Below, piece by piece: positions 6,510 through 62,520 of a stretch of 64,000 nucleotides of DNA (within the stretch, counting starts at the first letter, position 1; each line of letters starts with the position of its first letter). The stretch comes from Gammaproteobacteria bacterium. Its GTDB lineage: Bacteria; Pseudomonadota; Gammaproteobacteria; HK1. A model generated the notes under the pieces. It was not told the origin of the DNA. It ran no database searches and saw nothing but the letters and a program-made list of their open reading frames with translations. The position numbers were made by a program, and so were the translations under genes. The DNA lies in assembly GCA_022824305.1 (NCBI GenBank), contig JAJEAD010000059.1, forward strand, positions 62,001 to 126,000, in the 5' to 3' direction.

Positions 6510-6666
6510 CGCTGCGTCCTCGTGTTGTGCGGGAGGAGGCGAGCCACGGCGCCCCGCCATGCCATCGATGGCCGGCGCCGGCGGCGTCGCGCCCGCTTCG
6601 CGGTAGCGTTTGCGTGCCCGCGAGACGGTAGCATGCACGTCCCGAGCACGGCAGGAGAGTGAAGCG

Positions 6667-7839
6667 GTGAGCGTATTCGCGCCCGAGGAGTACCGCCGGC
6701 GCATCGCCGCGACCAGGGAGCGCATGGCGGCGGAGGGCATCGACGTGCTGCTCGCCAGCCACCCCGCCAACATGAACTACCTGAGCGGCTACGACGGCTG
6801 GTCCTACTACGTGCACCAGCTCGTGGCCCTCTCCCTCGACGACGGGGACCCGGTGTGGATCGGGCGGGAGATGGACGCCGCCGGCGCGCGTCTCACGGTG
6901 TTCATGGACGAGGGCCGGATCCACTCCTACCCGGACGAGTACGTCGACGCCCGCGACCGGCACTGCATGCAGCGCGTAGCCGGGATCCTCGAGTCGCTCG
7001 GCTGGCACCGGGGTCGCATCGGGGTGGAGATGGACGCGTGGTACTTCACCGCGCGCGCCTACGTCGAGCTCGGGGCGTGCCTGACCGAGGCGCGGCTCGT
7101 CGACGCGTGGCCGCTGGTCAACTGGGTCCGCCTCGTCAAGTCGCCGCCCGAGATCGAGATGATGCGCGCGGCGGGCCGGATCGTGTCGCGGGCGATGGGC
7201 GTGGCGGCGGAGGCGATCGCGCCCGGCGTGCGCGAGTGCGACGCGATCGCGGAGATCACCCGGGCGCTGCTGCAGGGCACGCCCGAGCACTGGGGCGACT
7301 ACCCCGCGACGCTGCCGCACGCGGGCAGCGGCGCGAAGGCCGCCGCACCCCATCTCACCTGGACCGGGGCGCCCTTCGAGGCCGGCGCCGCCACCAACAT
7401 CGAGCTCGGCGGCTGCCACCACCGCTACCACGCCGCGCTCGCGCGCACCCTGTGCCTGGGGAGCGCGCCTCCGCGCCTGCATACCCTCGCCGAGGTCACT
7501 CGCGAGGGCCTGCACGCGGCGCTCGACGCGGCACGTCCCGGCGCCGCCTGCGAGGAGGTGGAGGCGGCGTGGCGGCGCGTGATCGCCCGCGCCGGCTACG
7601 AAAAGCGCTCGCGCATCGGCTACTCCATCGGGCTCAACTACCCTCCGGACTGGGGCGAGCAGAGCGCATCGCTTCGCGCCGGCGACACCACGGTGCTCGA
7701 GCCGGACATGTGTTTCCACCTGATGCTCGGCATGTGGATGGACGGTTGGGGCTTCGAGCTGAGCGAGACCTTCCGGGTCGCCGAGGGCGAGCCGGAGGTG
7801 CTGACCGACTTTCCGCGAGAGTTGCTGACCAAGGAGTAG
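6667..7839 (+). CDS. doeA: ectoine hydrolase (DoeA/EutD-like, M24 family)
   Basis: A 390-residue creatinase-fold protein that follows characterised DoeA closely: LSGYDGWSYYVHQ, WIGREMDAAGAR, IGVEMDAWYF, NWVRLVKSPPEIEMM, GDYPAT, AAPHLTWTGAPF, CHHRYHAALARTLCLG, IGYSIGLNYPPDWGE and a C-terminal ELSETFRV. DoeA opens the ectoine ring to N-acetyl-diaminobutyrate. The metal-binding Asp of true methionine aminopeptidases is missing, as expected for the metal-free creatinase/DoeA branch. GTG 6667 is preceded by AGGAGAG about eight bases upstream. The divergent neighbour is a deacetylase-fold protein; the DoeB partner is not next to it. Two further M24 paralogues lie at 17.6 and 43.8 kb. Confidence 0.8.
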   Translation: MSVFAPEEYRRRIAATRERMAAEGIDVLLASHPANMNYLSGYDGWSYYVHQLVALSLDDGDPVWIGREMDAAGARLTVFMDEGRIHSYPDEYVDARDRHCMQRVAGILESLGWHRGRIGVEMDAWYFTARAYVELGACLTEARLVDAWPLVNWVRLVKSPPEIEMMRAAGRIVSRAMGVAAEAIAPGVRECDAIAEITRALLQGTPEHWGDYPATLPHAGSGAKAAAPHLTWTGAPFEAGAATNIELGGCHHRYHAALARTLCLGSAPPRLHTLAEVTREGLHAALDAARPGAACEEVEAAWRRVIARAGYEKRSRIGYSIGLNYPPDWGEQSASLRAGDTTVLEPDMCFHLMLGMWMDGWGFELSETFRVAEGEPEVLTDFPRELLTKE

Positions 7840-17571: not shown

Positions 17572-18747
17572 ATGGCGGAAGCGATGAGTGGCCGGCCATT
17601 CTCGGCCGATGAGTACGAGAGCCGGATATCCGCGCTGCGGGCGGGTCTCGAAGCGCGCGGTCTCGACGCCATCATCCTCTTCGCGCAGGAGAGCCACTAC
17701 TACCTCTTCGGCTACGACGGGACCGGCTACGTCTTCTTCCAGGCGGTGGTGCTACCGGCCGGTGGAGGGGAGCCGGTGCTCCTGTGCCGCCGTCCCGACG
17801 TCGCCCAGGCCCGGGACACCTCTTCCATCACCGACATCCGGGTGTGGCTGAACGCGGAGGACGCCCGCCCCGCCCGGGAGCTCCGGGCGATCCTGGCGGA
17901 GCTGGGCCTCGCCGGCACCCGCGTCGGCATCGAGCTCGACTCCTACGGGCTCACCGCCGCCGACTATCGCATGGTGGGCGAGGAGCTCGACGGGTTCTGC
18001 GAGCTGGTGGATGCTTCCCCGCTGGTGCGCGGCCTGCGCCTCGTCAAGTCGCCGGCCGAGATCGCGCTCACGCGCCGCGCCGCCGCGCTCGCCGACGACG
18101 CGGTGGAAGCGATTTTCCGGGCGGCGGAGCCGGGCGTGCTCGACGGAGCGCTCGTGGCGGTGGGCGCGGGCGCGATCTACGAAGGCGGGGGCGACCCCGC
18201 GCCCGGAGATCCCCTGATCAACTCCGGCCACAAGGCGGTCTACGGGCGCAGCGTGACCGGGCCCCGGGCGCTCGCGGAGCGCGACCAGCTCCTGGTGGAG
18301 CTCGCCGGAACCTACCGCCGCTACAACTGCTGCATCGAGCGCACCATCGTGCTCGGGGAGCCGGGCGCCGATCAGCTCGAGATGCACCGGGTGGTCCGGG
18401 ATACGCTGGAGGCGGCGATCGATGCCTTCCGCCCGGGCGAGCCGCTCGGTCGCGTCGACGAGGTGCACCGCAGCCGCCTCGATGCTGCCGGCTTCGGAGG
18501 GGAGCGCTACGCCGCGTGCGGATACTCGCTCGGCGCCACCTACCGGCCGAGCTGGATGGACGTGCCCCCGATGATCTACGCCGGCAACCCGCTGGAAATG
18601 CGCCCGGGCATGGTGTTCTTCCCCCACATCATGCTCGGCGACAAGCGCCGCGGGCTGGCGGTGGGGCTCGGCAACACGGTGATCGTGACCGAGACCGGGG
18701 CGGAATCGCTCTCCCGCCTCCCGCTCGATCTACTCGTCAAGGGTTGA
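17572..18747 (+). CDS. M24-family creatinase/ectoine-hydrolase-like protein (paralogue 2)
   Basis: A 391-residue creatinase-fold protein. N-terminal FSADEYESRISALRAGLEAR is followed by LFGYDGTGYVFFQAVVLP, IGIELDSYGL, RGLRLVKSPAEIALTRRAA, INSGHKAVYGRSVTGPR, ELAGTYRRYNCCIERTIVLG, CGYSLGATYRPSWMD and MVFFPHIMLG. The five metal ligands of aminopeptidases are absent, placing it with creatinase and DoeA. It is clearly related to the DoeA-like protein at 6.7 kb, but NCCIERT replaces HAALART and the NYPPDWGE motif has become TYRPSWMD, so substrate probably differs. An alternative ATG lies four codons downstream. Confidence 0.85.
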   Translation: MAEAMSGRPFSADEYESRISALRAGLEARGLDAIILFAQESHYYLFGYDGTGYVFFQAVVLPAGGGEPVLLCRRPDVAQARDTSSITDIRVWLNAEDARPARELRAILAELGLAGTRVGIELDSYGLTAADYRMVGEELDGFCELVDASPLVRGLRLVKSPAEIALTRRAAALADDAVEAIFRAAEPGVLDGALVAVGAGAIYEGGGDPAPGDPLINSGHKAVYGRSVTGPRALAERDQLLVELAGTYRRYNCCIERTIVLGEPGADQLEMHRVVRDTLEAAIDAFRPGEPLGRVDEVHRSRLDAAGFGGERYAACGYSLGATYRPSWMDVPPMIYAGNPLEMRPGMVFFPHIMLGDKRRGLAVGLGNTVIVTETGAESLSRLPLDLLVKG

Positions 18748-21863: not shown

Positions 21864-22081
21864 CCGGCTCGAAGGCCGAACGATTTCGTCGATTGAGCGG
21901 GCCATCGCCGTTCCGCGACGCGCGCGACCATTGAAGCGCCGGCTCTCGAGCAGTACGAGGTCCGTAAGTTGAATCCGGACGGCCCTGTGCCCATTAGCAC
22001 CTTTAGAGTTTCACTTCACCGTGATTGGCTTTCACGGGCCGGGCCGGGAACCATGAAGTGCGGGGACGCGGAGGGCGGTGC

Positions 22082-24280
22082 ATGACTTCCATTCTGGGCT
22101 ACTGCGACAGGATGAGCGCGGCCCCCGGGGAGGTCCTTCGCTTCATGGTGAGCTGCGAGGACGGGGCGGCGGACTACGACACCCGGATCGTGCGCCTGCT
22201 CTGCACCGACGATCACCCCGACGGCCCGGGGCGCCGCGAGCTCGAGGTGGAGAGCCCGGTCTCCGGGCGCCGCTCCGGCCGGCGGCAGGCGATACGCATG
22301 GGCTCCTGCGTCGTCGTGCCGCCGGACGCGGCGCTCGATGCCCTCGAATCCTTCACCGTTCAGGTCCTGGTCTGGGCGACGACTCCGGAGCACGGGCGCC
22401 AGGCGCTGGTTGCCCGGTGGTGCAACGAGAGCCGTCGCGGATTCGCGCTGGTGCTCGAGAGGGGCGGCGCTGCCCTCATGCTCGGGGACGGCGCCGGTGA
22501 GCCGTCCCCGGTCGCGACCGGAGCGGCTATGGTCGCACGGGAGTGGTACCGGGTGACGGCAAGCCGGGACGCACGGAGCGGCATCGTCCGCGTCGTCCAG
22601 ACTCCGCTCTCGGGCGCTCCCCTACGCGCGAGCGCCGCCGAAGCCGTCCGTCCGGTCGATCCCGTCTCGGCAACGTTGCCCGAAGCGCCGCTCCTCTTCG
22701 CGGCGTGGCGCGAGTCGCCGGCGGGCGCCCGGCTCGCGACCGGCGGCCACTTCAACGGCAAGCTGGAGACCCCGCGCCTGGCCGCCGGGGCGCTGGACGA
22801 GCGCGAGATGGCGGAGCTGCCCGCGGCGGAGGCGCTCGGCGCCTGGGACTTCTCGCGCGGCATCGACGGCGAAACGGTCAGCGATCTCTCCCCTCGGCAG
22901 CAGCACGGGCGCACCGTGAACCTGCCCACCCGCGCGGTCACCGGGCACGACTGGACCGGCGAGTTCCTGTCCTGGCGGGAGCGCCCCGAGCAGTACGGCG
23001 CCATCCACTTCCACGACGACGATCTCGCGGATGCGGGCTGGGAGGCCGACTTCAGCCTGGAAGTGCCTTCCGGGATGGCGAGCGGCGTGTATGCGGCCCG
23101 CCTCGCAACGGAGACCGGCGCCGACTACGTGCCCTTCGTGGTCCGTCCGCGCGTCGGCGAGGCGAGGGCCCCGATCGCCTTCGTGGTGTCGAGCGCGACC
23201 TACACCGCCTACGCCAATACCCGCCTCGCAGTTTCCGATCCCCTCGACGAGATCGAGCGCGGGTCCCTCTACGAGCTCTTCGAGGCGGACCTGTATCTCC
23301 AGGAGCACCCCGAGCTGGGCCAGTCGCTCTATGACACGCACTTCGACGGCAGCCCCATGGTGTACTCCTCGCGGCTGCGTCCGGTGCTCAACATCCGACC
23401 CGGCACCCGCCTGTGGAACTTCAACGCCGACATGATGGTGGTGGAGTGGCTGCACTCGCAGGGCTTCGCCCACGACGTCTTCACCGACGAGGACATTGAC
23501 CGGGACGGCGTCGCCCTGCTGCGCTCCTACCGCTGCGTCCTCACCGGCAGCCACCCCGAGTACGTGTCGGACCCGATGATGCGCGCCTTCGAGGACTACC
23601 TCGAAGGAGGCGGGCGGCTCATGTACCTGGGCGGCAACGGCTTCTACTGGCAGATCGCGTTCCATCGAGACGAGCGCGGGATCATCGAGTGCCGGAAGAG
23701 CGAGGGCGTGCGCAACTACGAGATCGCGCCGGGGGAGCGCCACCACAGCTTCGACGGCCGCGCGGGCGGGCTGTGGCGCAACCGGGGCCGGGCGCCGAAC
23801 CGGCTCGTGGGGGTGGGCACGTCGGGGTTCGGCTTCGACTCCTGCGGCTGGTACCGCCGCACCGCCGCGAGCTTCGACCCGCGCGCCGCGTTCATCTTCG
23901 AAGGGGTCGGCGCCGACGAGGCGATCGGCGACTTCGGCCTGGTGGGCGGCGGCGCGGCGGGGGTCGAGCTGGACTCCTGCGAGCGCTCGCTGGGATCGCC
24001 CGCGCACGCGCTGGTGGTCGCCCGCTCGGCGGGGCTCTCGCGCTGCTACCTTCCCTCGCCGGAGGTGATGCCCTACCTGCACCTGGCCATGAGCGGGGAC
24101 GAGAACCCCGGGGTACGCGCCGACATGGTCTTCTTCGAGGGTCCGCGGGGCGGAGCGGTGTTCTCCACCGGCTCGATCGCCTGGGCGACCAGCCTCTGCC
24201 ACCACGGCGGCGACAACAACGTGTCGTGCATCACCGGGAACGTGCTCCGTCGATTCCTCGACGAAGCGCCCTTCGCCTGA
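22082..24280 (+). CDS. N,N-dimethylformamidase beta-subunit-like amidohydrolase
   Basis: A 732-residue protein resembling the large subunit of N,N-dimethylformamidase. A concanavalin-like sheet region (LESFTVQVLVWATTPEHGRQ) occupies the first ~260 residues. The catalytic domain follows with ATYTAYAN (Tyr374/Tyr377), SLYDTHFDGSPMVYSSRLRP (Tyr417), VLTGSHPEYVSD (His491, Glu493), YLGGNGFYWQIA and FGLVGGGAAGVELD. In characterised DMFase a mononuclear iron is held by two Tyr and one Glu with a nearby catalytic His in the same GSHPEY motif; all have counterparts here. The reaction would be amide hydrolysis to acid plus amine. GC-rich tandem hairpins follow the stop. True substrate is unknown. Confidence 0.83.
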   Translation: MTSILGYCDRMSAAPGEVLRFMVSCEDGAADYDTRIVRLLCTDDHPDGPGRRELEVESPVSGRRSGRRQAIRMGSCVVVPPDAALDALESFTVQVLVWATTPEHGRQALVARWCNESRRGFALVLERGGAALMLGDGAGEPSPVATGAAMVAREWYRVTASRDARSGIVRVVQTPLSGAPLRASAAEAVRPVDPVSATLPEAPLLFAAWRESPAGARLATGGHFNGKLETPRLAAGALDEREMAELPAAEALGAWDFSRGIDGETVSDLSPRQQHGRTVNLPTRAVTGHDWTGEFLSWRERPEQYGAIHFHDDDLADAGWEADFSLEVPSGMASGVYAARLATETGADYVPFVVRPRVGEARAPIAFVVSSATYTAYANTRLAVSDPLDEIERGSLYELFEADLYLQEHPELGQSLYDTHFDGSPMVYSSRLRPVLNIRPGTRLWNFNADMMVVEWLHSQGFAHDVFTDEDIDRDGVALLRSYRCVLTGSHPEYVSDPMMRAFEDYLEGGGRLMYLGGNGFYWQIAFHRDERGIIECRKSEGVRNYEIAPGERHHSFDGRAGGLWRNRGRAPNRLVGVGTSGFGFDSCGWYRRTAASFDPRAAFIFEGVGADEAIGDFGLVGGGAAGVELDSCERSLGSPAHALVVARSAGLSRCYLPSPEVMPYLHLAMSGDENPGVRADMVFFEGPRGGAVFSTGSIAWATSLCHHGGDNNVSCITGNVLRRFLDEAPFA

Positions 24281-40417: not shown

Positions 40418-41356
40418 TCAGGCGCCCCGCAGTCCTCCGGCGAGGGCGCGTATGTGCTCCACTCCCACGCCGCAGCAGCCGCCGACGATCGAAGCCCCCG
40501 CCTCGACCCAGCGCCTCGCGTCGGCCAGGTACTCGTCCGGCGAAACCTGGTCGACGAAGGTCCAGTTCGGTCGCGTCCAGTAGCCCGCGTTGGGATAGGC
40601 GCCCACCGGTCCCGACCAGGCCCCACGAAGGACCCTGACGGCGTCCTCGGTCAGGTCCCGGACCGAGTGCATCATGAGGACGGCCGAGCCGCCCACCGAC
40701 ATGATCTCCCTTGCCGCCTCCGCGAGCGGGCCGTAGGTCACCGCCGCTTCGGGGGCTTCAGTGCTCTCCTCCATGCCGAAGAGCACGGCGCCGCCGTCGC
40801 GATCGCGCACGCAGCTCAGGGAGACCCACACCGGCACGCCCAGGTCCGTCGTCGCGTTCACCATGGTCCTGATCGTCCGCACGCTGGACCCCAGAGTCTC
40901 CAGCATCAGCAGGTCGACGCCCTCCTCGACCAGGATCCCGGCCTGGGCGCGGAAATGGCCGTACAGCGTCTCCCGGTCGAGCGCTCCGAAGTGACCGTAG
41001 GTCCCGACCGATCCCGCCACCGCGACGGACTCCGCCCGCGCTGACCGGTCGCGCTCCTCCCGGGCCATGTGCACCGAACGACGGTTCCAGTCCTCGAAGT
41101 GCTCGGCCAGTCCGCAGCGCTGCATGGCTTCCCGGGTGGCGGAGTAGCTGTTGGTCGTGATGATGTCCGCGCCGGCATCGATGTACCGGCGGTGGACCCG
41201 GCGCACCACGTCGGGAGCGTCGGCGAGCGCGCGGGCGCACCAGAGACTCTGATCCATGCGGGCGCCCAGTCGCTCGAGCTCGGAACCGTTGGCGCCGTCC
41301 AGAATCACCGGACCCTCGCCCTGAAGCAGTGTTTCGAGTCGATCGATCGGCGCCAA
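40418..41356 (-). CDS. homocysteine S-methyltransferase family protein
   Basis: A 312-residue Zn-dependent methyltransferase-like barrel. VILDGANGSELERLGARMD is the family N-terminus and ADIITTNSYSATREAMQRCG the second motif. VSLSCVRDRDG supplies the first zinc Cys and IVGGCCGVGVEHIRAL the Cys pair. Members move a methyl group from S-methylmethionine or betaine-type donors to homocysteine or a related thiol. The start is a TTG at 41356, with GGGGGTCGAGG ahead of it. Likely first gene of the minus-strand UbiD operon, 220 bases upstream of it. With the GcvT-like gene diverging from it, one-carbon transfer may be a local theme. Confidence 0.9.
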   Translation of the reverse strand: MAPIDRLETLLQGEGPVILDGANGSELERLGARMDQSLWCARALADAPDVVRRVHRRYIDAGADIITTNSYSATREAMQRCGLAEHFEDWNRRSVHMAREERDRSARAESVAVAGSVGTYGHFGALDRETLYGHFRAQAGILVEEGVDLLMLETLGSSVRTIRTMVNATTDLGVPVWVSLSCVRDRDGGAVLFGMEESTEAPEAAVTYGPLAEAAREIMSVGGSAVLMMHSVRDLTEDAVRVLRGAWSGPVGAYPNAGYWTRPNWTFVDQVSPDEYLADARRWVEAGASIVGGCCGVGVEHIRALAGGLRGA

Positions 41357-41568
41357 CGTTGAATCCTCGACCCCCAGAGTCGGGGCGCACCATCACCGGG
41401 GAGGGGTACGCTGTCAACCGCGCCGGGCCATGGGGGTGACGGCGCCGGCGCTACCCGCCATCATGCACCGCCGCTGAAGGCTCCCGCTCCTCCCGAGCCG
41501 GACTGCGACGGAGTATGGCGGCCGGCTTGCGCGCCCGCCGCAGGAACCGCGATCAGAGAGCTTCGTCC

Positions 41569-42732
41569 ATGAACATTCAGGAAAACCTGGACATCAACGA
41601 CACCGTGCGGGTGAGCTCCCGGTGCTTCGAGGTGTCTCCCTATCTCGAGCGCTACGAGAGCCCGGACATGGTGCGTGGCGTCTACGCCGGCCGCTTCTTC
41701 GCGATCTACAACGGCGAGGACCCGGTGCACAAGTACTGGACGCTGCGACGCAAGGCCCTGCTCTACGACGTGCCGGAGAAGCCGGTGGAGATTTCCGGCC
41801 CCGACTCCGTGCCCTTCCTGGAGAAGGTGCTGACGCGAAGGGTCGCCACGCTCGCCGAGGGAAGAGGCCGCTACGCCATCGCCTGCACGCCGCAGGGCGG
41901 GGTGTTCATGGACGGCGTGCTGTTCCGGCTGGGAGACGAACGTTTCTGGTACGTGCAGGCGGACGGCGCCTTCGAGACCTGGCTGACCGCGCACAGCGGC
42001 GGATTCGACGTCATGATATCGGACCCGCGCTCCCGCGTGATCCAGATCCAGGGACCGGCGTCGATGGACATCATGCGGGCGGCCTCCGCCGGGGGGATCG
42101 ACGCGGGCTTCAAGCGCTTCCGGGCGGGATTCTTCCATCTCGGCGGGCAGCGGCTCTACGTCTCGCGCACCGGGTTCACCGGCGAGCTCGGCTACGAGAT
42201 CTACTGCAACGGCGAGGCGACCGACCATCTCGCCCTGTGGGACCACCTGATGGCGGCGGGCGAGCCCTTCGGCATGGAGTTCTCCAGCACGCGTTCCATG
42301 ACCATCCGGCGCATCGAAGCGGGAATACTGGGCAACATGACGGACATGGACACGACCATGACGCCGTTTCAGGCGGGCCTGGGAGCCTTCGTCGACATGG
42401 ACAAGGGGGAGTTCATCGGTCGCGCCGCGCTCCTCGGCGCGGACCGCCGCACCCTGCTGTACGGCGTGACCTGCGATGCCGCCGTTCCCGGTCGGGGCAG
42501 CACGGTGCAGGACGGCGGGGCCGCGGTCGCCACCCTGACCGCGGGGGTCGATTCCCCGACGCTCGGCTGCGGCATCGGCTACGCGCGCTTCCGCGAACCC
42601 GGGGAGTGGGGCGGGCGCGAGCTGAAGGTCAGGCTGCCCGACGGCGACGTGCACGCGTGCCGCGTCGTCGATCTCCCCTTCTTCGATCGCGAGAAGCGCA
42701 TCGTGCGGGGACTCGAGCGCACGATTCCCTGA
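41569..42732 (+). CDS. GcvT-like aminomethyltransferase family protein
   Basis: A 387-residue tetrahydrofolate-dependent aminomethyltransferase-fold protein. EDPVHKYWTLRRKALLYDVP leads into VEISGPDSVPFLEKVLTR, YAIACTPQGGVFMDGVLFRL and IQIQGPASMDIM. LYVSRTGFTGELGYEIYC holds the folate-binding Gly-Glu segment, and the C-terminal domain has FIGRAALLGADRR and GYARFREPGEWGG. Relatives demethylate glycine betaine derivatives, dimethylglycine or DMSP. ATG 41569 (MNIQENLDIN) was chosen over an upstream arginine-rich extension. Exact substrate unknown. Followed by hairpins at 42.77 kb. Confidence 0.87.
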   Translation: MNIQENLDINDTVRVSSRCFEVSPYLERYESPDMVRGVYAGRFFAIYNGEDPVHKYWTLRRKALLYDVPEKPVEISGPDSVPFLEKVLTRRVATLAEGRGRYAIACTPQGGVFMDGVLFRLGDERFWYVQADGAFETWLTAHSGGFDVMISDPRSRVIQIQGPASMDIMRAASAGGIDAGFKRFRAGFFHLGGQRLYVSRTGFTGELGYEIYCNGEATDHLALWDHLMAAGEPFGMEFSSTRSMTIRRIEAGILGNMTDMDTTMTPFQAGLGAFVDMDKGEFIGRAALLGADRRTLLYGVTCDAAVPGRGSTVQDGGAAVATLTAGVDSPTLGCGIGYARFREPGEWGGRELKVRLPDGDVHACRVVDLPFFDREKRIVRGLERTIP

Positions 42733-42768
42733 GTGCGCACGGCCGCGCGGTCGATTTCGGAAGGAATT

Positions 42769-42816
42769 CCGTCCCCCCGCGCCTCGCCGGCGGGGACGGT
42801 GTCCGGCGTTCGCCGG
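42769..42816 (+). terminator. two hairpins after the GcvT-like gene
   Basis: CCGTCCCC (42769-42776) pairs with GGGGACGG (42792-42799), and CCGGCG (42803-42808) pairs with CGCCGG (42811-42816) across two bases. They lie 37 bases after the stop and separate this gene from the racemase gene. Confidence 0.5.
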
Positions 42817-42979
42817 GCGTCTGCCGCGACCCGGGCACCGGGCGGCTCCGGGATGCGCTTCGGGGAGTTATCCGCCACGTGTCCACTGCGCGGCGAGACG
42901 AGGTCTCTCATCCGCCGCCGCGCTCCGCGCTTGCTGCTACCATGCTCCGGCAGAGCACATCGATCCGGGAGGCAGCGAC

Positions 42980-43774
42980 ATGAGTGCGAGCGCCGCGGAG
43001 CTTGAATCGAAGGGCGCCTGGCGCCTGATGCCCTGCGAGCACGACGGCGGCCCGGCGGCCCGGGCTGCGATCGGGCTCGTCACCCTGTGCAACGACGTGA
43101 CCATCGAGCCGGAGCTGCGCAACTTCCTGCCGCTCGAGGGCGTGGCCGTCTACGCGAGCCGGGTGCCCAACACCACCGCCGGTACCGTCGAGTCGCTGCG
43201 CCTGCTCGAGGGGCACATCACCGCCGCCGCCGCGCTCATCGTGCCCGACATCAGAATCGACGTGATGGCCTTCGGGTGCACGTCGGGGTCCATGGCGATC
43301 GGGCCCGACGTGGTAGCGGAGCGCATTCGGGAGGCCCGGCCCGGGATGGCCTGCACCAACCCGGTGAGCGCCGCCGCCAAGGGCCTGCGCGCGCTCGGCT
43401 GCAAGCGCATCGCGCTGCTCGACCCCTACACCGACGAGGTCAACGTGGTGGTGGAGCGCTACGTGAGCGGGCAGGGCTTCGACATCGTGGACAAGGGCAG
43501 CTTCAAGCAGCGCGGCGATCCGAACATCGTGCGGGTGCCGCCGCAGGCGATCTTCGAGGCGGGGCTCGCGCTCGCCTCCCCGGCGTCGGTGGACGGGCTC
43601 TTCATCTCCTGCACCGCGCTTCGAGTATCGCCGGTCATCGCACGGCTGGAGGCGGCGCTCGGCAAGCCGGTGGTGAGCAGCAACCAGGCGCTCGCCTGGG
43701 ACTGCCTGCGCCTTGCGGGCTGCGACGCCACCGTGCCCGGATTCGGGCGCCTGCTCGCGGGCGAGGGCGGATAG
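42980..43774 (+). CDS. Asp/Glu racemase-superfamily protein (EutA/maleate isomerase-like)
   Basis: A 264-residue protein of the arylmalonate decarboxylase/maleate isomerase/EutA group. The two catalytic cysteine motifs are MAFGCTSGSMAIG and LFISCTALRVSP. RVPNTTAGTVESL, TNPVSAAAKGLRALGCKRIA and LDPYTDEVN are typical. EutA belongs to ectoine-utilisation clusters, with an unproven isomerase role. The TAG stop is followed immediately by the GTG of the M24 gene, so the two are translationally coupled. That pairing matches ectoine clusters, where EutA and DoeA/EutD occur together. Confidence 0.88.
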   Translation: MSASAAELESKGAWRLMPCEHDGGPAARAAIGLVTLCNDVTIEPELRNFLPLEGVAVYASRVPNTTAGTVESLRLLEGHITAAAALIVPDIRIDVMAFGCTSGSMAIGPDVVAERIREARPGMACTNPVSAAAKGLRALGCKRIALLDPYTDEVNVVVERYVSGQGFDIVDKGSFKQRGDPNIVRVPPQAIFEAGLALASPASVDGLFISCTALRVSPVIARLEAALGKPVVSSNQALAWDCLRLAGCDATVPGFGRLLAGEGG

Positions 43775-44950
43775 GTGAGGGCGCCGCGTTTCCAGTACTT
43801 CAGCCTGGAAGAGTACCGGGAGCGGCTGGACGCCCTGCGCCGCCGCATGGAGGGAGCGGGCGCCGACGTCCTCCTCGTCACCAGCCCCGAGAACCTCTGT
43901 TATCTGAGCGGCTACCAGACGCCGGGCTACTACTGGTACCAGACCCTGATCGTTCCGCTGGAACGCGAGCCGGTATTCGTGGTGCGGATGAACGAGGCCT
44001 CGAACGTCGAGCCCCTGTCCTGGGTGGAGGACTGCCGTCCCTACGAAGACTTCGAGGACTGGATCGCCCACACCCGGGACGTGCTCGCCGACCTCGGTCT
44101 CGCCGGGGCGCGCATCGGTCTCGACTACGACTCCTTCTTCCTTCGCACCCGCGACGAGAAGCGCCTGGTCGCGGCGCTTCCGGCGGCCACCTTCGTCGAC
44201 GGCGCGGGTCTGGTGGAGGAGGGACGCCTCGTCAAGTCTCCGCGGGAGCTCGAGTACATGCGCCAGGCGGCGCGCGCGGCGGAGGCGGGACTGCGGGCGG
44301 GCATCGAAGCCTGCCGGGCGGGAGTCACCGAGAACGACGTGGCGGCCGAGATCCACCATGCCCAGATCCTCGCGGGCAGCGAGTACACGGGCCTGCCGAT
44401 CTTCATCCGTACCGGAGCGCGGGATGCCCAGACCCACGCCACCTGGGCCCGTCACCCGCTCGAGCCGGGCGACAGCATCACCATGGAGATGCCGGGCTGC
44501 ATCAACCGATACCATGCGGCCCTGTACGGGCAGGTCTTTCTCGGCGAGCCGCCCGACGCGCTGCTGCGCGGCATGGAGATCGGCAACGGCATCATGCGCG
44601 AGGCCAAGGCCGCGATCCGGCCCGGGGTGCCCGCCGGCGACATTCACGCCCTGGTGCAGGGGCGCCTGCGCGAGGCGGCGGGGGAGGCGGCGCAGCGCAA
44701 CAGCCGGACCGCCTACTCCATCGGCATCGCCTTCGCGCCGGACTGGGGAGAGGGGCACATTCTCAGCATGACCCAGGGCGAGACGCGCCCGCTCGAAGCG
44801 GGCATGACCTTCCACCTGCTCGCCGGTCACGTCTTCCTGACCGGAATTGCGCGGATCAAGCGTTCGTGCTGCAGCGACACGGTGCTCGTGACCGAGGACG
44901 GCTGCGAGACGCTCACCGGCGGCGTGGAGCACAAGGTCTACGTGAGGTAG
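43775..44950 (+). CDS. M24-family creatinase/ectoine-hydrolase-like protein (paralogue 3)
   Basis: A 391-residue creatinase-fold protein starting GTG directly after the EutA-like stop. Motifs: YFSLEEYRERLDALRRRMEG, NLCYLSGYQTPGYYWYQTLI, VGLVEEGRLVKSPRELEYM-like (LVEEGRLVKSPRELEYMRQA), TGLPIFIRTGARDAQTHATW, TMEMPGCINRYHAALYGQVF, AYSIGIAFAPDWGEGHILSM and MTFHLLAGHVFL. It keeps the PDWGE phrase of DoeA and, like it, lacks aminopeptidase metal ligands. Coupling to EutA makes an ectoine-type or related cyclic amidine/amide hydrolase plausible. It differs clearly from the copies at 6.7 and 17.6 kb. Confidence 0.86.
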   Translation: MRAPRFQYFSLEEYRERLDALRRRMEGAGADVLLVTSPENLCYLSGYQTPGYYWYQTLIVPLEREPVFVVRMNEASNVEPLSWVEDCRPYEDFEDWIAHTRDVLADLGLAGARIGLDYDSFFLRTRDEKRLVAALPAATFVDGAGLVEEGRLVKSPRELEYMRQAARAAEAGLRAGIEACRAGVTENDVAAEIHHAQILAGSEYTGLPIFIRTGARDAQTHATWARHPLEPGDSITMEMPGCINRYHAALYGQVFLGEPPDALLRGMEIGNGIMREAKAAIRPGVPAGDIHALVQGRLREAAGEAAQRNSRTAYSIGIAFAPDWGEGHILSMTQGETRPLEAGMTFHLLAGHVFLTGIARIKRSCCSDTVLVTEDGCETLTGGVEHKVYVR

Positions 44951-45000
44951 TCCCCTGTCCGTGAGAGCCCAGGCGCAATGACGAGGATGGTTCGGGACTC

Positions 45001-45050
45001 GTGGATCCCCGCACAGGTCGGAATCCACGCGCCTGGCTCCGGCTAGCCGG
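45001..45050. repeat. inverted repeats upstream of the Rieske-like gene
   Basis: GTGGAT (45001-45006) with ATCCAC (45023-45028), and the 12-base palindrome CCGGCTAGCCGG (45039-45050), lie between the M24 stop and the Rieske-like gene. Either could be the end of the upstream transcript or an operator. No further support. Confidence 0.35.
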
Positions 45051-45163
45051 GATGGGGGAGAGCCGCCTGCATCGAAGGGTCTCGGACCACACGAATTTCC
45101 CGCTGCGCGGCCATGGCGGCGTCGATTCGTCCGAAGCGCATGCCGCCGGGAGGTAGTGAACTC

Positions 45164-46396
45164 ATGATCGACCGGGACATGGAGCTGACCCACGAGGAAC
45201 TCGAGTCCATACGCGCCCCCATCGAGCGGGCGCTGACCCTGCCCGCGCGAGTCTTCACGTCTCGCGCCTTCTTCGACCTCGAGGTGGAACGCATCTTTCA
45301 TCGCCACTGGATGGCGCTCGCCTTCGAGGGGACCTTGCCCGAGCCCGGCGACATGCGGCCGATCGAGCTCTTCGGCCAGCCGATCGCGCTGGTGCGGGGC
45401 GACGACGGGACCTTGCGTGCCTTCCACAACATGTGCCCCTACGACGGGTGCCTCGCAGTGCGAGGGGAGCAACGCGGCGCGCGCGAGATCGAGGTCTACT
45501 ACCACGGCTGGCGCTACGACCTGCGCGGGCGCCTCCTCGCCGCCCCCTACTGGGACGGCACGCCGGCCGGCGATCCCGCCTGCCTCGAGGGACGTGAAGC
45601 GGACCTGGTGGAGATTCGCTCCGAGTGCCGGCTCGGCCTGCTCTTCGTGGACCTCGGCGGGCAGGCAGGCAGTCTGGACCGGCACCTCGAGCCGCTCTAC
45701 CGGCTGCTCGACGAGTACGACCTCGACCGCGCGGTGCCGGTGGAAGACGACGATGTCCTCGCCCGGACCGGGCGCACGGTGGACGCGAACTGGAAGAGCT
45801 ACATCGAGAACGCGGCGATCAACATCCTCCACGAGGGCTTCACCCACGAGGCGTACCGCCGTTCGCCCGACGTGCCGAGGGCTCGCAACGGCGAGCGGAC
45901 CTTCTTCACGGTGCGCGAGAGTTCGCTCCTCGCCTTCGGGTTCCGGATGAGCGATGTCCCCAACACCTATGCGACTGGCGGCAATACCCCCCACCTCGGC
46001 CGCTCGGCTCCGCCGACAAGAGGCTACTTCGTCACTCTCTATCCCAATATCGCAATGCCGATCCGGGTGAACATGTTCCGGCTCGGGGTCTGTCTTCCCG
46101 AGGCTCCCGGCCGTTCCCGCATTCTCCAGTGCGGCAACTTCCATCCCGATGCGGCGGCGAGCGCGGACTTCGCCGCCTATCACCGGGGGCTCGCGGAGCG
46201 CTACGAGCGGGTCTACGACGAGGACCGCATCGCGATCGAAGCAGTGCAGCGCGCACGCGCCTCACCGGTGTGGCAGCAACACTTCTACGCCCCTTTCTGG
46301 GACGAGCTCCACTACGGATTCGACAACCTGGTCGCCGACGATCTCTCGTCGCAAGCGGTCCGCGCTTCGGTGCCGGGAGTCGCGACCGCGCGCTGA
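45164..46396 (+). CDS. Rieske-oxygenase alpha-subunit homologue with degenerate cluster motif
   Basis: A 410-residue homologue of aromatic-ring/quaternary-amine oxygenase alpha subunits. GGGAGGT about nine bases ahead fixes ATG 45164. The cluster motif spacing matches naphthalene dioxygenase (C81-x-H83, C101-x2-H104): here positions are Cys91, Tyr93, Val111 and His114, so one His and one Cys are replaced (MCPYDGC and EVYYHGW). The non-heme iron pair is intact, His223-x4-His228 in ILHEGFTH, after NWKSYIEN. The bridging Asp three residues before the first His is Asn220. DEDRIAIEAVQRA lies near the C-terminus. It probably cannot bind a normal [2Fe-2S] cluster. No ferredoxin, reductase or beta subunit is adjacent. 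Confidence 0.85.
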   Translation: MIDRDMELTHEELESIRAPIERALTLPARVFTSRAFFDLEVERIFHRHWMALAFEGTLPEPGDMRPIELFGQPIALVRGDDGTLRAFHNMCPYDGCLAVRGEQRGAREIEVYYHGWRYDLRGRLLAAPYWDGTPAGDPACLEGREADLVEIRSECRLGLLFVDLGGQAGSLDRHLEPLYRLLDEYDLDRAVPVEDDDVLARTGRTVDANWKSYIENAAINILHEGFTHEAYRRSPDVPRARNGERTFFTVRESSLLAFGFRMSDVPNTYATGGNTPHLGRSAPPTRGYFVTLYPNIAMPIRVNMFRLGVCLPEAPGRSRILQCGNFHPDAAASADFAAYHRGLAERYERVYDEDRIAIEAVQRARASPVWQQHFYAPFWDELHYGFDNLVADDLSSQAVRASVPGVATAR

Positions 46397-46629
46397 CGGA
46401 AGAACCTGCGGGTGGCCTCGGCCCGGGTGCCGCCGGTCGGCCTCCCGCTCGCGGGGACGGCCGGCATGGGGCGAGCGCGGCGCTTCCGCCACTTCGCCGG
46501 GTCCCCGCGATCTCGGAGGCGACGGCGGAATCGCTTCCGCCCTGGCGGCCGGCACGCATTGCCGGACCTTTCCCACGCTGCCGTCGGGGCCGCCTCGCGC
46601 CACGCTCGGGCTGCCCCCGCGGGGCTGCT

Positions 46630-47289
46630 TCAGACCGCGAGCTTGAGCTTCCTTTCGCGGAAGCGGGCGAACATGCTCAGCGGAAAGATGATCATGAAGT
46701 ACAGCAGGCCAGCGACCGTGAAGATCTCCAGGTAGCGGAAGGTCTCGCCGCTGATGACGCTCGCGTGGTAGGCGAGCTCGGTGATGCCGATTGCCGAAAG
46801 CAGGCTCGACACCTTGACGAGATCGCAGATGAAGTTGATGAAGGGCGGGATCATCATGCGCAGGGCCTGGGGAGAGATGACGACGCCGTAGACCCAGAAC
46901 ACGGGGATGCCCAGGGAGTTGGCCGCCTCGTACTGGCCGCGGGGCACCGCTTGCAGTCCGGCCCGGAAGATCTCCGCGAGGAAGGCGCCGGAGTACAGGG
47001 TGAGCGCCACGATGCCCGCCCCTTCGGCGGTGATGCGGAAGTTGAAGATGAGCGGTCCGGCCGAGTAGATCCAGAAGATCGGCACCAGTTCCGGCAGGGT
47101 GCGGAAGACGTCGATGATGACGGTGGAGATCCGGAAGAAGATGCCGCGGCGGCGCAGCTTGCCGAAGCACAGGATCAGCCCCAGCACGATGCCGAGCCCG
47201 AGCGACGCGCTGCAGATGAAGAAGGTCATGATCGCGCCGTCGACGAGCAGCGGCCACTGCTGCTTGATGACGAAGACGTTGAACTCCAT
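46630..47289 (-). CDS. polar amino-acid/ectoine-type ABC permease
   Basis: A 219-residue HisM/GlnP-type permease. Membrane segments include WPLLVDGAIMTFFICSASLG and IIDVFRTLPELVPIFWIYSA. The ATPase-docking EAA-like loop reads YEAANSLGIPVFWVYGVVIS followed by PQALRMMIPPFINFICDLVK. It lies 15 bases after the second permease gene in a three-gene minus-strand operon with a family-3 binding protein. No ATPase gene is in the operon; a fitting one is at 52.8 kb. In Ehu ectoine transporters two such permeases pair as well. Confidence 0.93.
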   Translation of the reverse strand: MEFNVFVIKQQWPLLVDGAIMTFFICSASLGLGIVLGLILCFGKLRRRGIFFRISTVIIDVFRTLPELVPIFWIYSAGPLIFNFRITAEGAGIVALTLYSGAFLAEIFRAGLQAVPRGQYEAANSLGIPVFWVYGVVISPQALRMMIPPFINFICDLVKVSSLLSAIGITELAYHASVISGETFRYLEIFTVAGLLYFMIIFPLSMFARFRERKLKLAV

Positions 47290-48976: not shown

Positions 48977-49183
48977 GGGGCTCTCCTCCATTGGCATGCA
49001 CCATGCCTCGCGGCGATCCGTGCAAGGCCGGCGCTACTGGTATGAATGGCTTCCTGCCCGGTGCATTCTATAGTCGGTCCACGCCCTGCCGCGACTCCAG
49101 AACCGCGCGGCGCCAGCCTCGGATCGGAGATCCGGACGGCGGCGCCCCGTTCGGCGAGAGGGCGAACCAAGCGGAGATCCGAC

Positions 49184-50161
49184 ATGAACGAGCTGCTCTA
49201 CCTGAACGCTTCCCATCTCGACGCCCTGGACCTCGGCATGTCCGACATCGTCGATATCCTCGAAGAGGTGTTCCGCCACAAGGCGGCGGGCGACACCGCG
49301 ATGCCGCCGAAGATGTTCTTCTACACCGAAGGGGACCGCTTCCTGAGCGCGATGGGGAGCGCCTGCGCGCCGCTCGGATACGCGGGCGCAAAGTGGCAGA
49401 GCGGCAACCCGGATAACCCTGCGCGGGGACTGCCCTACATCCAGGGGCTCTACGTGCTGAACGAGTACGAGAGCGGCCGGATGACGGCGATTCTCGACTC
49501 GAAGTGGATCACCGCGAAGCGCACCGCCGCCGCCTCCGCCCTCGTCGCGCGCCACCAGGTCCGTGCCGGCGCTGCCGAGCTGGCCCTGCTCGGCTGCGGG
49601 GTGCAGGGCAGGGCCCACCTGGAGGCGATGACGGCGGAGGTGGCGAGCCTCGCGCGGTGCCGGGTCTACGACACGGTGCCCGCGCGGCAGCGGGCCTTCG
49701 TGGAGGAGATGGACGGACGCTTCGGCGGGGTGCGCGTGGAAGGGGCCGAGAGCGCCCGGTCCGCCCTCGAAGGCGCCGACATCGTGGTTCCGGGCGGCCC
49801 CATCACCGCGGAGCGGCGCGCGAGCATCGCCTCGGAGTGGGTTGCGCCCGGCGCCCTCGTGGTGGCCATCGACTACGACTCCTACGTGACCGACGAGTGC
49901 ATCGCCGCCATGGACATCGTCATCACCGACGACCGCGGGCAGATCGAAGACGCGCGGGCCCGGGAGGGCAAGTTCCTCGGCGTCACCCGCATCGACGCCG
50001 ACAACGCGGAGATGATCGCCGACGGCAAGGGGCTTCGCGAGAACGATCGCCAGCGCATTCTCGCCTTCAACCTCGGCATCGCGCTCGAGGACGTGGCGAC
50101 CGCGGCGGAGGCGCTGCGCAGGGCGCGGGAAAGGGGTATCGGCGTCCGGCTTCCGGCCTGA
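49184..50161 (+). CDS. ornithine cyclodeaminase/mu-crystallin family protein (EutC-like)
   Basis: A 325-residue NAD-binding protein of the OCD family. FRHKAAGDTAMPPKMFFY and RTAAASALVARHQV are substrate-domain motifs, LALLGCGVQGRAHLEAM is the dinucleotide motif, and DIVVPGGPITAERR and GQIEDARAREGKF are typical later segments. OCD-family proteins deaminate or reduce small amino acids and imines; EutC of ectoine utilisation belongs here. It diverges from the ABC transporter operon and may process the imported compound. ATG 49184 follows GGAGATCCGAC. Confidence 0.9.
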   Translation: MNELLYLNASHLDALDLGMSDIVDILEEVFRHKAAGDTAMPPKMFFYTEGDRFLSAMGSACAPLGYAGAKWQSGNPDNPARGLPYIQGLYVLNEYESGRMTAILDSKWITAKRTAAASALVARHQVRAGAAELALLGCGVQGRAHLEAMTAEVASLARCRVYDTVPARQRAFVEEMDGRFGGVRVEGAESARSALEGADIVVPGGPITAERRASIASEWVAPGALVVAIDYDSYVTDECIAAMDIVITDDRGQIEDARAREGKFLGVTRIDADNAEMIADGKGLRENDRQRILAFNLGIALEDVATAAEALRRARERGIGVRLPA

Positions 50162-61278: not shown

Positions 61279-62520
61279 TCACCGCCGCTGCCCCGCGCGC
61301 CGAAGTCCGAGGTAGAAGGGCAGGAGGGCGAGCACCAACAGCACTGCCGCCCCGAGGAAGGGCGCACCGGGCAGATAGATGGGAGCGGAGTCTCCCACGA
61401 AGTAGCCGAAGATCTGCGTCATCAACAGGGGACTGATGATCATGGTCACCCCCATGACGCTTGCCAGGGCGCCCTGCAGCTCGCCCTGCGCGCGCTCGGA
61501 TACCTGATTGGACATCACGCCGGTGAGCGCCGGGACGATGAGGGCGCCGAAGGCGGTCAGGGGCAGGGCGGCGTAGATCATCCAGCCCTCGGTGGCGAGG
61601 CCGAAAAAGATGAGGCCTCCGATGCTGATCGCGAAACCCAGCCAGACGGTTCCCGCCTCGCCCGCGCGGGGAATGATCAGGCGGATGAGCCAGCCCTGGA
61701 CCACCGCGAAGCACACGCCGACGATCGCGAGAGACAGACCGACCTCGGCGTTGGACCAGGCGAATGCCTCCTTGGTGTAGAAGCTCCATATCGCCGGGTA
61801 CACGTGATGCCCGACCTCGTAAATGAACATGGCGAGAAAGAACCAGGAGAGCGCGGGCATGCGGACGATCTGCCGGGCGGCGCCCAGGGGATTGGCGCGG
61901 CGCCAGCGGAAGGAGCGCCGCCGGTCCCGGGCGAGCGTTTCCGGCATGACGAAGGCGCCCCAGGCGAAGTTGGCGATGGCGATCGCGGCGGCGGCGAAGA
62001 AGGGCGCCCGCGTTCCCAGCTCTCCCGCCAGCCCGCCGATCAGCGGCCCGGCGACGAAGCCGACGCCGAAACCGGCCCCGAGGAGGCCGAAGTTCTGGGC
62101 TCTGCGCTCCGGGGGGCTGATGTCGGCGATGAAGGCGTTGGCGGTGGAGTAGGTGGCGCCGGCGACGCCCGCCAGCGCGCGTCCCACGAAGAGCAGCCAG
62201 AGGGTCGGCGCGAAGCCCATGATCAGGTAGTCGACCGCGAGCGCGAAGAGCGACACCAGCAGCACCGGCCTGCGCCCGAAGCGGTCCGACAGGTTCCCCA
62301 GGGTGGGTCCGCTCGCGAACTGCATGAGCGCGTACACGAAGGTCAGGTAGCCGCCCACCACCGCGGCGCTGCCGAGGGAGAGCCCCCCGAGCTCGCGGAT
62401 GAGGTCGGGCATCACCGGAATGATGATCCCGATGCCCATCGCGTCGATGAGCACCGTCACGAAGACGAAGGAGGTCGCCTTCCGGTATCCGCTCACGCGC
62501 TTGGCGTCGTCGTCCGCCAC
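61279..62520 (-). CDS. MFS drug-resistance type transporter (TetA-like)
   Basis: A 413-residue 12-segment major-facilitator protein. Segment 1 is FVFVTVLIDAMGIGIIIPVM with the motif-D1 Asp; motif A is GNLSDRFGRRPVLLVSL; motif C in segment 5 is GAGFGVGFVAGPLIGG. This is the TCR/Tet (DHA1) family of proton-driven exporters. GTG 62520 is chosen because AGGAG precedes it by five bases; longer frames upstream are arginine-rich. A HigA-like regulator gene follows 50 bases downstream. Exported compound unknown. Confidence 0.92.
   Translation of the reverse strand: MADDDAKRVSGYRKATSFVFVTVLIDAMGIGIIIPVMPDLIRELGGLSLGSAAVVGGYLTFVYALMQFASGPTLGNLSDRFGRRPVLLVSLFALAVDYLIMGFAPTLWLLFVGRALAGVAGATYSTANAFIADISPPERRAQNFGLLGAGFGVGFVAGPLIGGLAGELGTRAPFFAAAAIAIANFAWGAFVMPETLARDRRRSFRWRRANPLGAARQIVRMPALSWFFLAMFIYEVGHHVYPAIWSFYTKEAFAWSNAEVGLSLAIVGVCFAVVQGWLIRLIIPRAGEAGTVWLGFAISIGGLIFFGLATEGWMIYAALPLTAFGALIVPALTGVMSNQVSERAQGELQGALASVMGVTMIISPLLMTQIFGYFVGDSAPIYLPGAPFLGAAVLLVLALLPFYLGLRRAGQRR

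Follow-up and report, generated by a model that had tools for sequence, protein, structure and literature searches.

A Rieske oxygenase homologue without the cluster ligand set in a Gammaproteobacteria bacterium

Can a protein with the fold of a Rieske oxygenase work when the residues that would hold its [2Fe-2S] cluster are replaced? This question is raised by the P0001 gene, located in a stretch of 64,000 nucleotides (hereafter the window) that covers positions 62,001–126,000 of the forward strand of contig JAJEAD010000059.1 from a Gammaproteobacteria bacterium [GCA_022824305.1]. The ligands of both metal sites are described as highly conserved and as an identifying feature of all five Rieske oxygenase groups (PMC10952381, 2023). 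A first-pass annotation of the window had reported that P0001 has lost half of the cluster ligands together with the bridging Asp, while the iron-binding residues are kept. In this work we followed these residues through the relatives of P0001 and examined the origin, possible function and gene neighborhood of the family.

Motifs of P0001 and their state in the family

The reading frame encodes 410 amino acids and contains no internal stop; an alternative upstream ATG at 45113 is also in the open frame. Both expected domains were recognized by Pfam: the Rieske domain PF00355 (residues 48–129, 51.7 bits with a cut-off of 20.3, 8.4e-14) and the catalytic domain Ring_hydroxyl_A PF00848 (residues 205–393, 53.3 bits with a cut-off of 24.9, 4.5e-14). 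Six NCBIfam equivalogs were matched, all far under their cut-offs, and the best sequence score against solved structures was 82.6 bits. The structure prediction that had been suggested for this protein gave an intact two-domain fold, composed of a Rieske-fold and a catalytic domain, and the best 50 rows of each fold search were titled Rieske oxygenases or unnamed relatives. The features of the gene are as follows.

45164..46396, + strand: P0001, putatively cluster-less Rieske oxygenase homologue, 410 aa (Pfam, homologue search, dN/dS)
45434..45451, + strand: first cluster loop, residues 91–96 C-P-Y-D-G-C, Tyr93 in place of the ligand His (alignment)
45494..45511, + strand: second cluster loop, residues 111–116 V-Y-Y-H-G-W, Val111 for the ligand Cys, His114 kept (alignment)
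45806..45847, + strand: iron motif, residues 215–228, with E-N, a one-residue insertion, Asn220 at the bridging place, His223 and His228
46223..46225, + strand: third iron ligand Asp354 (Y-D-E-D), by alignment, region E353-D354

The first loop with its context reads N-M-C91-P-Y93-D-G-C96, and the iron motif reads E215-N-A-A-I-N220-I-L-H223-E-G-F-T-H228. In a review the ligands of the Rieske domain are numbered Cys81/His83/Cys101/His104 (PMC12445004), and the corresponding positions of P0001 have exactly the same spacing of 2, 18 and 3 residues, as the first-pass annotation had stated; all the residues that it named (C91, Y93, V111, H114, N220, H223, H228) are present in the translation. Compared with the alpha subunit of naphthalene dioxygenase [1ndo], P0001 has two of the four ligands and the bridging Asp replaced.

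The family was collected in three protein searches, from which the best 120 of 263, 283 and 962 matches were taken. Together with P0001 the listed relatives make 309 distinct proteins (90% identity representatives), whose records carry the labels Pseudomonadota, Myxococcota and Latescibacterota; all family counts on 307 or 309 rows hold among the matches listed. They were compared with 121 canonical rows (48 from loci L001–L060, one from L070 and 72 from L074–L140), which were separated solely by length and by the absence of a match to the loop-1 pattern. Because the canonical rows were chosen in this way, the results for positions 111 and 114 are not built in.

The full set of four ligands is present in 121 of 121 canonical rows and in 0 of 307 family rows, among which three rows keep three ligands, 205 keep two and 99 keep one. 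Thus, none of the close homologues retains the canonical set, a check that the first-pass annotation had proposed. At position 91, Cys is found in 197 of the 307 rows (otherwise Val 77, Gly 14, Ser 11, Thr 6, Ala 1, Leu 1); position 93 is occupied by Tyr in 290, Phe in three and His in 14; at position 111, Cys never occurs (Thr 158, Val 86, Ala 21, Ile 14, Gly 14, Ser 14). The canonical rows have Cys, His and Cys, respectively, at these three places without exception (121/121 each). Position 114 is His in all rows of both groups (307/307 and 121/121). Asp94 is likewise found in 307 of 307 family rows and Tyr113 is invariant in the family, while Cys96 is kept in 296 rows and replaced in 11.

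The bridging place, three residues before the first iron His, holds Asn in 298 of the 309 family rows, Asp in nine and other residues in two, against Glu in 86 and Asp in 35 of the 121 canonical rows. The His-His-Asp iron triad is retained in 299/309 family and 117/121 canonical rows, and seven of the ten family rows without it are under 360 aa long. Taken separately, the Asp at place 354 is present in 300 of 309 and 121 of 121 rows, respectively. Lys211 and Asn216 are found in all 309 family rows. In addition, one residue common to the family is inserted between E215-N216 and the iron ligands: E215 and H223 lie 8 residues apart in 307 of 309 family rows, as against 7 in 115 and 6 in six of the canonical rows.

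The cluster ligand set and the bridging carboxylate are therefore absent from the family as a whole and the triad residues are kept, so that the changes on the electron-supply side with a preserved iron site, first noticed in P0001, extend to the whole clade. With Tyr or Phe at position 93 in 293 of 307 rows, and with positions 111 and 220 as given above, the proposal of a coherent shift, as opposed to random decay, holds well. The ratio of non-synonymous to synonymous substitution rates (dN/dS) of P0001 is about 0.19 against the relative at locus L061 and about 0.17 against that at L062; the gene is under purifying selection.

When tested for membership of the Rieske oxygenases, P0001 goes with them by its predicted fold and iron-site residues and stands apart by its cluster ligands and the place of the bridging Asp/Glu. 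The Group V enzymes CntA (carnitine) and Stc2 (stachydrine demethylase) are distant, with 21–23% identity in the alignments of CntA and stachydrine demethylase, and CntA, unlike P0001, has four ligands and a bridging Glu. CntA-type Group Va is described as defined by an aromatic residue two places before the bridging carboxylate, Y203 in CntA (PMC7948474). The equivalent place 218 holds A in 160, S in 102, G in 23, C in 22, V in one and T in one of the 309 family rows, and the aromatic residue of Group Va is not found there.

Origin and order of the changes

A first tree of 158 rows, computed with a quick method, placed the 37 rows with altered loops on one side of a branch with a support of 100 in the Shimodaira–Hasegawa-like approximate likelihood ratio test and a stem of 0.94. 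A second tree of 77 rows, for which a careful method was used, joined the 58 family rows in one clade (100/100, stem 1.21). The family has a single origin.

The loss of the second Cys (position 111) is common to all 307 rows. Of the 14 rows with His93, 13 belong to one subclade, and P0187 branches basally in the other half of the family; given these two separate placements, Tyr93 postdates the loss of the second Cys and probably has more than one origin. It had been asked whether Tyr93, Val111 and Asn220 co-vary in a clade. Tyr93 and Asn220 occur together in 288 of 309 rows, and to this extent they do; the exceptions are the His93 rows (eight with Asp220 and six with Asn220) and one further row that combines Tyr93 with Asp220. 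Because 14 rows keep His93 and one pairs Tyr93 with Asp220, the changes came stepwise. In the nine rows with Asp220, this residue may be ancestral or regained. In P0292, P0293 and P0295 the second Cys alone is missing (Ala111), and Cys91, His93, His114 and Asp220 are all present; these three proteins represent natural intermediates between the canonical and cluster-less forms. It should be mentioned that another family member, P0288, contains an interrupting segment that carries helix-turn-helix domains of the transposase type (PF01527, PF13384).

The genome of P0001 contains a paralogue on contig C7 (locus L141) with 46% identity. Matches at E<=1e-80 were found in one of 369 genomes of the class and one of 398 of the phylum, in both cases the window's own genome, and in three of 17 genomes of the order sample. 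Among plasmids, 888 records matched P0001, none of them with at least 60% identity. Some family members bear the source name 'choline monooxygenase'. Thiothrix lacustris, Leucothrix arctica and Emcibacter nanhaiensis are among the carriers with species names.

Electron supply and possible function

In CntA, electrons reach the iron of each subunit from the cluster of its neighbor via Glu205; the E205 mutants described in that work were all inactive, and E205D and E205Q are cited there as inactive too (PMC7948474). Because the cluster ligands and the bridging carboxylate are both gone, the normal electron route is very unlikely in the P0001 family. We infer that its members have no [2Fe-2S] cluster, bind iron and do not need a reductase. 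The reading that we favor, and to which we give about an even chance, is that P0001 is a cluster-less mononuclear iron enzyme that needs no reductase and likely uses O2, the electrons being supplied by the substrate itself. Of the two possibilities raised by the first-pass annotation, a cluster-less iron enzyme or one with another cofactor, the former is the best reading and the latter found no support.

An iron site of this kind can support O2 chemistry with electrons supplied by the substrate, as Fe(II) ring-cleaving dioxygenases do, and it can also support redox-neutral chemistry. The former is our preference, since the best structural matches are oxygenases and since the genes found nearby in some subclades (an amine oxidase, a hydrolase, a EutA-type fold and a TetR regulator) resemble the nicotine pathway in kind. 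The deformylase of the nicotine pathway is an alpha/beta-hydrolase, and maleate isomerase has an Asp/Glu-racemase fold. Hpo/NicX is described as an Fe(II)-dependent homotrimer that opens the ring of 2,5-dihydroxypyridine, after which a deformylase and an isomerase act, and in organisms that use nicotine this step is preceded by that of a flavin amine oxidase (PMC7688666). We propose Hpo/NicX with its deformylase as a working analogue of P0001; it is an analogue in working only, homology is not claimed, and the substrate of Hpo is known. The reaction would likely be a substrate-driven oxygenation or cleavage, the product of which may in some subclades be hydrolysed by a partner alpha/beta-hydrolase, perhaps in the setting of amine catabolism. 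The old Rieske domain may now serve in assembly and in lining the iron site of the neighboring subunit; such a role would account for the invariance of Asp94, Tyr113 and His114 and for the drift at the two Cys places.

For the family as a whole, it can be hypothesized that a Rieske scaffold became a reductase-free iron oxygenase: the cluster was shed once, deep in the tree, the other ligands and the bridging carboxylate were lost later, the iron motif was reshaped by one inserted residue, all electrons came to be drawn from the substrate, and P0292, P0293 and P0295 are living intermediates. This history is tentative, and we hold it somewhat less firmly than an even chance.

The own genome contains one reductase match (PF00970, C22:4714-5292) against 40 Rieske-domain matches; a single reductase may serve many of its oxygenases, or these may depend on reductases of other kinds. 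Relatives of the C22 reductase were not found at any of the 15 family loci (the window, the paralogue locus L141, and L061–L073, several of which, L064, L065 and L071, are short or frame-broken), a result of low power, as the same query matched only two of 140 loci (L133 and L090). No NdmD-type reductase was seen in the own genome (94.73% complete), and the C22 contig has no PF00355 match.

Among the alternatives, a redox-neutral metal enzyme survives best, although we consider it unlikely. The His-His-Asp triad would bind Fe or Zn, and the protein would be a hydrolase, lyase or isomerase working without O2. Such an enzyme would suit the loss of the electron-supply features with a retained metal triad, and at some loci the neighbors have hydrolytic or isomerising folds (EutA/arylmalonate decarboxylase (Amdase)-like, M24, agmatine deiminase-like); however, the best 50 rows of each fold search were Rieske oxygenases or unnamed relatives by title, and the partner with the strongest enrichment, a flavin oxidase, suggests aerobic chemistry. 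That we know of no redox-neutral member of the Rieske oxygenase fold also counts against it.

A split electron supply is rather more doubtful. NdmC, of the 7-methylxanthine N7-demethylase NdmCDE from Pseudomonas putida CBB5, is described as a non-heme iron monooxygenase of the Rieske oxygenase family that has no Rieske cluster, its Rieske domain having moved to the reductase NdmD, which carries the extra cluster (PMC4408171). Like NdmC, the P0001 family has no [2Fe-2S] ligand set of its own, so its iron might be fed by a Rieske cluster on a reductase or on a canonical oxygenase; the 40 Rieske-domain matches of the own genome would leave room for this, and at L070:10001-12333 (Myxococcota) a canonical Rieske oxygenase gene lies directly 3' of a cluster-less copy. 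Unlike NdmC, which was compared by description only, P0001 keeps a Rieske-fold domain from which the ligand set is gone, and this domain would fill the docking place. Moreover, the bridging carboxylate needed by such a route is replaced by Asn220, the contig of the sole PF00970 reductase in the own genome shows no Rieske-domain match, and relatives of this reductase are absent from the family loci, with the low power noted above.

It is improbable that another metal centre or cofactor occupies the old cluster pocket, held by Cys91, Cys96, Asp94 or His114. The high conservation of Cys96, His114 and Asp94 would speak for it; however, Cys91 is replaced in 110 of 307 rows and Cys96 in 11, and no alternative ligand set is kept throughout, so that the cofactor using Cys96 (and Cys91) that had been suggested is not borne out. 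Still less credible is a pseudoenzyme or scaffold devoid of catalysis: the defining electron-transfer parts are lost, but the triad is nearly always kept, most rows without it are short, Lys211 and Asn216 never vary, and dN/dS is low. Sequencing error, a pseudogene or chance resemblance was ruled out with next to no residual doubt, as about 290 of 307 relatives with three phylum labels share the changes, the frame is intact and dN/dS is low.

Neighboring genes and meaning for the family

In the window P0001 stands at the end of a same-strand run that includes three other genes:

41515..42732, + strand: GcvT-like gene (aminomethyltransferase fold), possible operon (PF01571 2.8e-43; under NCBIfam cut-offs)
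42980..43774, + strand: EutA/arylmalonate-decarboxylase-like gene (PF17645; EutA model 213.8 bits, cut-off 318)
43775..44950, + strand: M24 creatinase/ectoine-hydrolase-like gene (PF00557, PF01321; DoeA_2 334.6 bits, cut-off 575)

The M24 gene starts immediately after the EutA-like gene, and opposite-strand genes for amino-acid-type transporters come next after P0001. There is no beta-subunit gene, of the kind known from naphthalene dioxygenase, among the annotated neighbors, and a promoter and terminator scan of 41300-46700 gave no signal above chance. Three creatinase-type M24 genes lie in the window, all inside a span of 40 kb (6610-7839, 17572-18747 and 43775-44950). Ectoine catabolism is not claimed, as the EutA/DoeA-like neighbors are below NCBIfam cut-offs and the window has three M24 genes.

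As a control for the 15 family loci we used the 67 remaining loci from the same scan; a canonical row was obtained from 66 of them. Frequencies are given first with each query's own locus counted and then without it; the p-values are descriptive, since the loci are related and had been viewed before the partner queries were picked. A flavin amine oxidase, with monoamine oxidase and putrescine oxidase as its nearest solved relatives, was found at 6/15 family loci against 0/67 (Fisher 1.4e-5; 5/14 without the own locus, 7.8e-5). Alpha/beta-hydrolases of two types, 28% identical over 172 residues, were found at 6/15 against 2/67 (3.2e-4; 4/13 without both query loci, 0.006). The hydrolase link is strengthened by P0229, since in this protein of 710 residues the first part is an oxygenase homologue and the second a hydrolase, 60% identical over 300 residues to that encoded beside the L072 homologue; P0229 is a single record, and a stop lost in assembly is possible.

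Other partners were less frequent: a TetR regulator (3/15 against 0/67; 2/14, 0.028), the EutA/Amdase-like gene (3/15 against 1/67, 0.018; relatives at L071 and at the paralogue locus, L141:11104-11868:-), the M24 gene (2/15 against 0/67), and agmatine deiminase-like and carbon-nitrogen hydrolase genes (each 2/15 against 0/67; 1/14). An OCD-like gene (window 49046-50161; 1/15, its own locus, against 0/67) had no relatives at any other locus compared. Because the queries were post hoc and the loci related, only the amine oxidase link and, less surely, the hydrolase link stand out.

At L066 an N-carbamoylputrescine amidase above cut-off and an agmatine deiminase-like gene below it give a substrate lead for one subclade. 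Agmatine/putrescine catabolism as a general role was rejected, the deiminase being found at only two of 15 loci, one of them the query's own. A general guanidino link was also dropped: relatives of the arginine-deiminase-like gene beside the paralogue (L141; 1/15, itself) were found at 0/14 other family loci and 4/67 canonical ones. The GcvT-like gene (2/15 against 5/67) was dropped as a specific partner, with 1/14 other family loci against 5/67.

It should be mentioned that around the cluster-less homologues L067:662-4229 (Methylobacter metagenome-assembled genome) and L069:7159-11439 (Crenothrix) have in common a gene with a weak DUF1579 match, just below cut-off, and two gene families for which L069 gave no Pfam match. 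A gene similar to the N,N-dimethylformamidase beta subunit (PF20254) is located at 22025-24280 of the window, with relatives near the cluster-less homologue at L066 (7668-9908) and L070 (951-3209).

Several points weigh against a reductase-free oxygenase and its proposed setting. A redox-neutral metal enzyme fits nearly as well. In view of P0292, P0293 and P0295 and of the invariant His114, some branches could still hold a cluster or another centre. The gene pair at L070 described above is a further point of this kind. The reductase test had little power, canonical loci being nearly all without a C22-type reductase too. Partner genes differ from subclade to subclade, and four of the six amine oxidase loci fall in one subclade. 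The window's own neighbors are not clearly enriched at other family loci: without the own locus, the EutA/Amdase-like gene is found at 2/14 (p 0.076), the M24 gene at 1/14 (L063) and the GcvT-like gene at 1/14. Neither an amine oxidase nor a hydrolase was found in the window between 34001 and 57000. The amine oxidase of the own genome, 65% identical to that of L065, is unlinked (C85), and genomes G012 and G015, in which only the window-type copy was found, have no amine oxidase match at E<=1e-20. Leaving out the query's own locus weakens the hydrolase, TetR and EutA links. The core reading, that of a cluster-less iron enzyme, does not rest on the partner-gene enrichments.

To our knowledge, NdmC is the sole precedent for the loss of the cluster, and it somewhat lowers the novelty that the first-pass annotation had expected; no description of a clade like that of P0001 was found in a literature search whose scope left out preprints and many journals. 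The family shares its fold and iron-site residues with the Rieske oxygenases, and their defining cofactor is predicted to be gone. It matches the Pfam Rieske domain above the cut-off even though it is predicted to be unable to hold a normal cluster, and genes of the P0001 type are probably misnamed in databases as ordinary Rieske oxygenases. If the proposed reading is true, the family shows how an enzyme class whose definition includes the import of electrons can be remodelled to do without it; this class, limited in use by its redox partners, would gain a single-component relative, and the roles of the bridging residue and of the Rieske domain would become testable by natural comparison.
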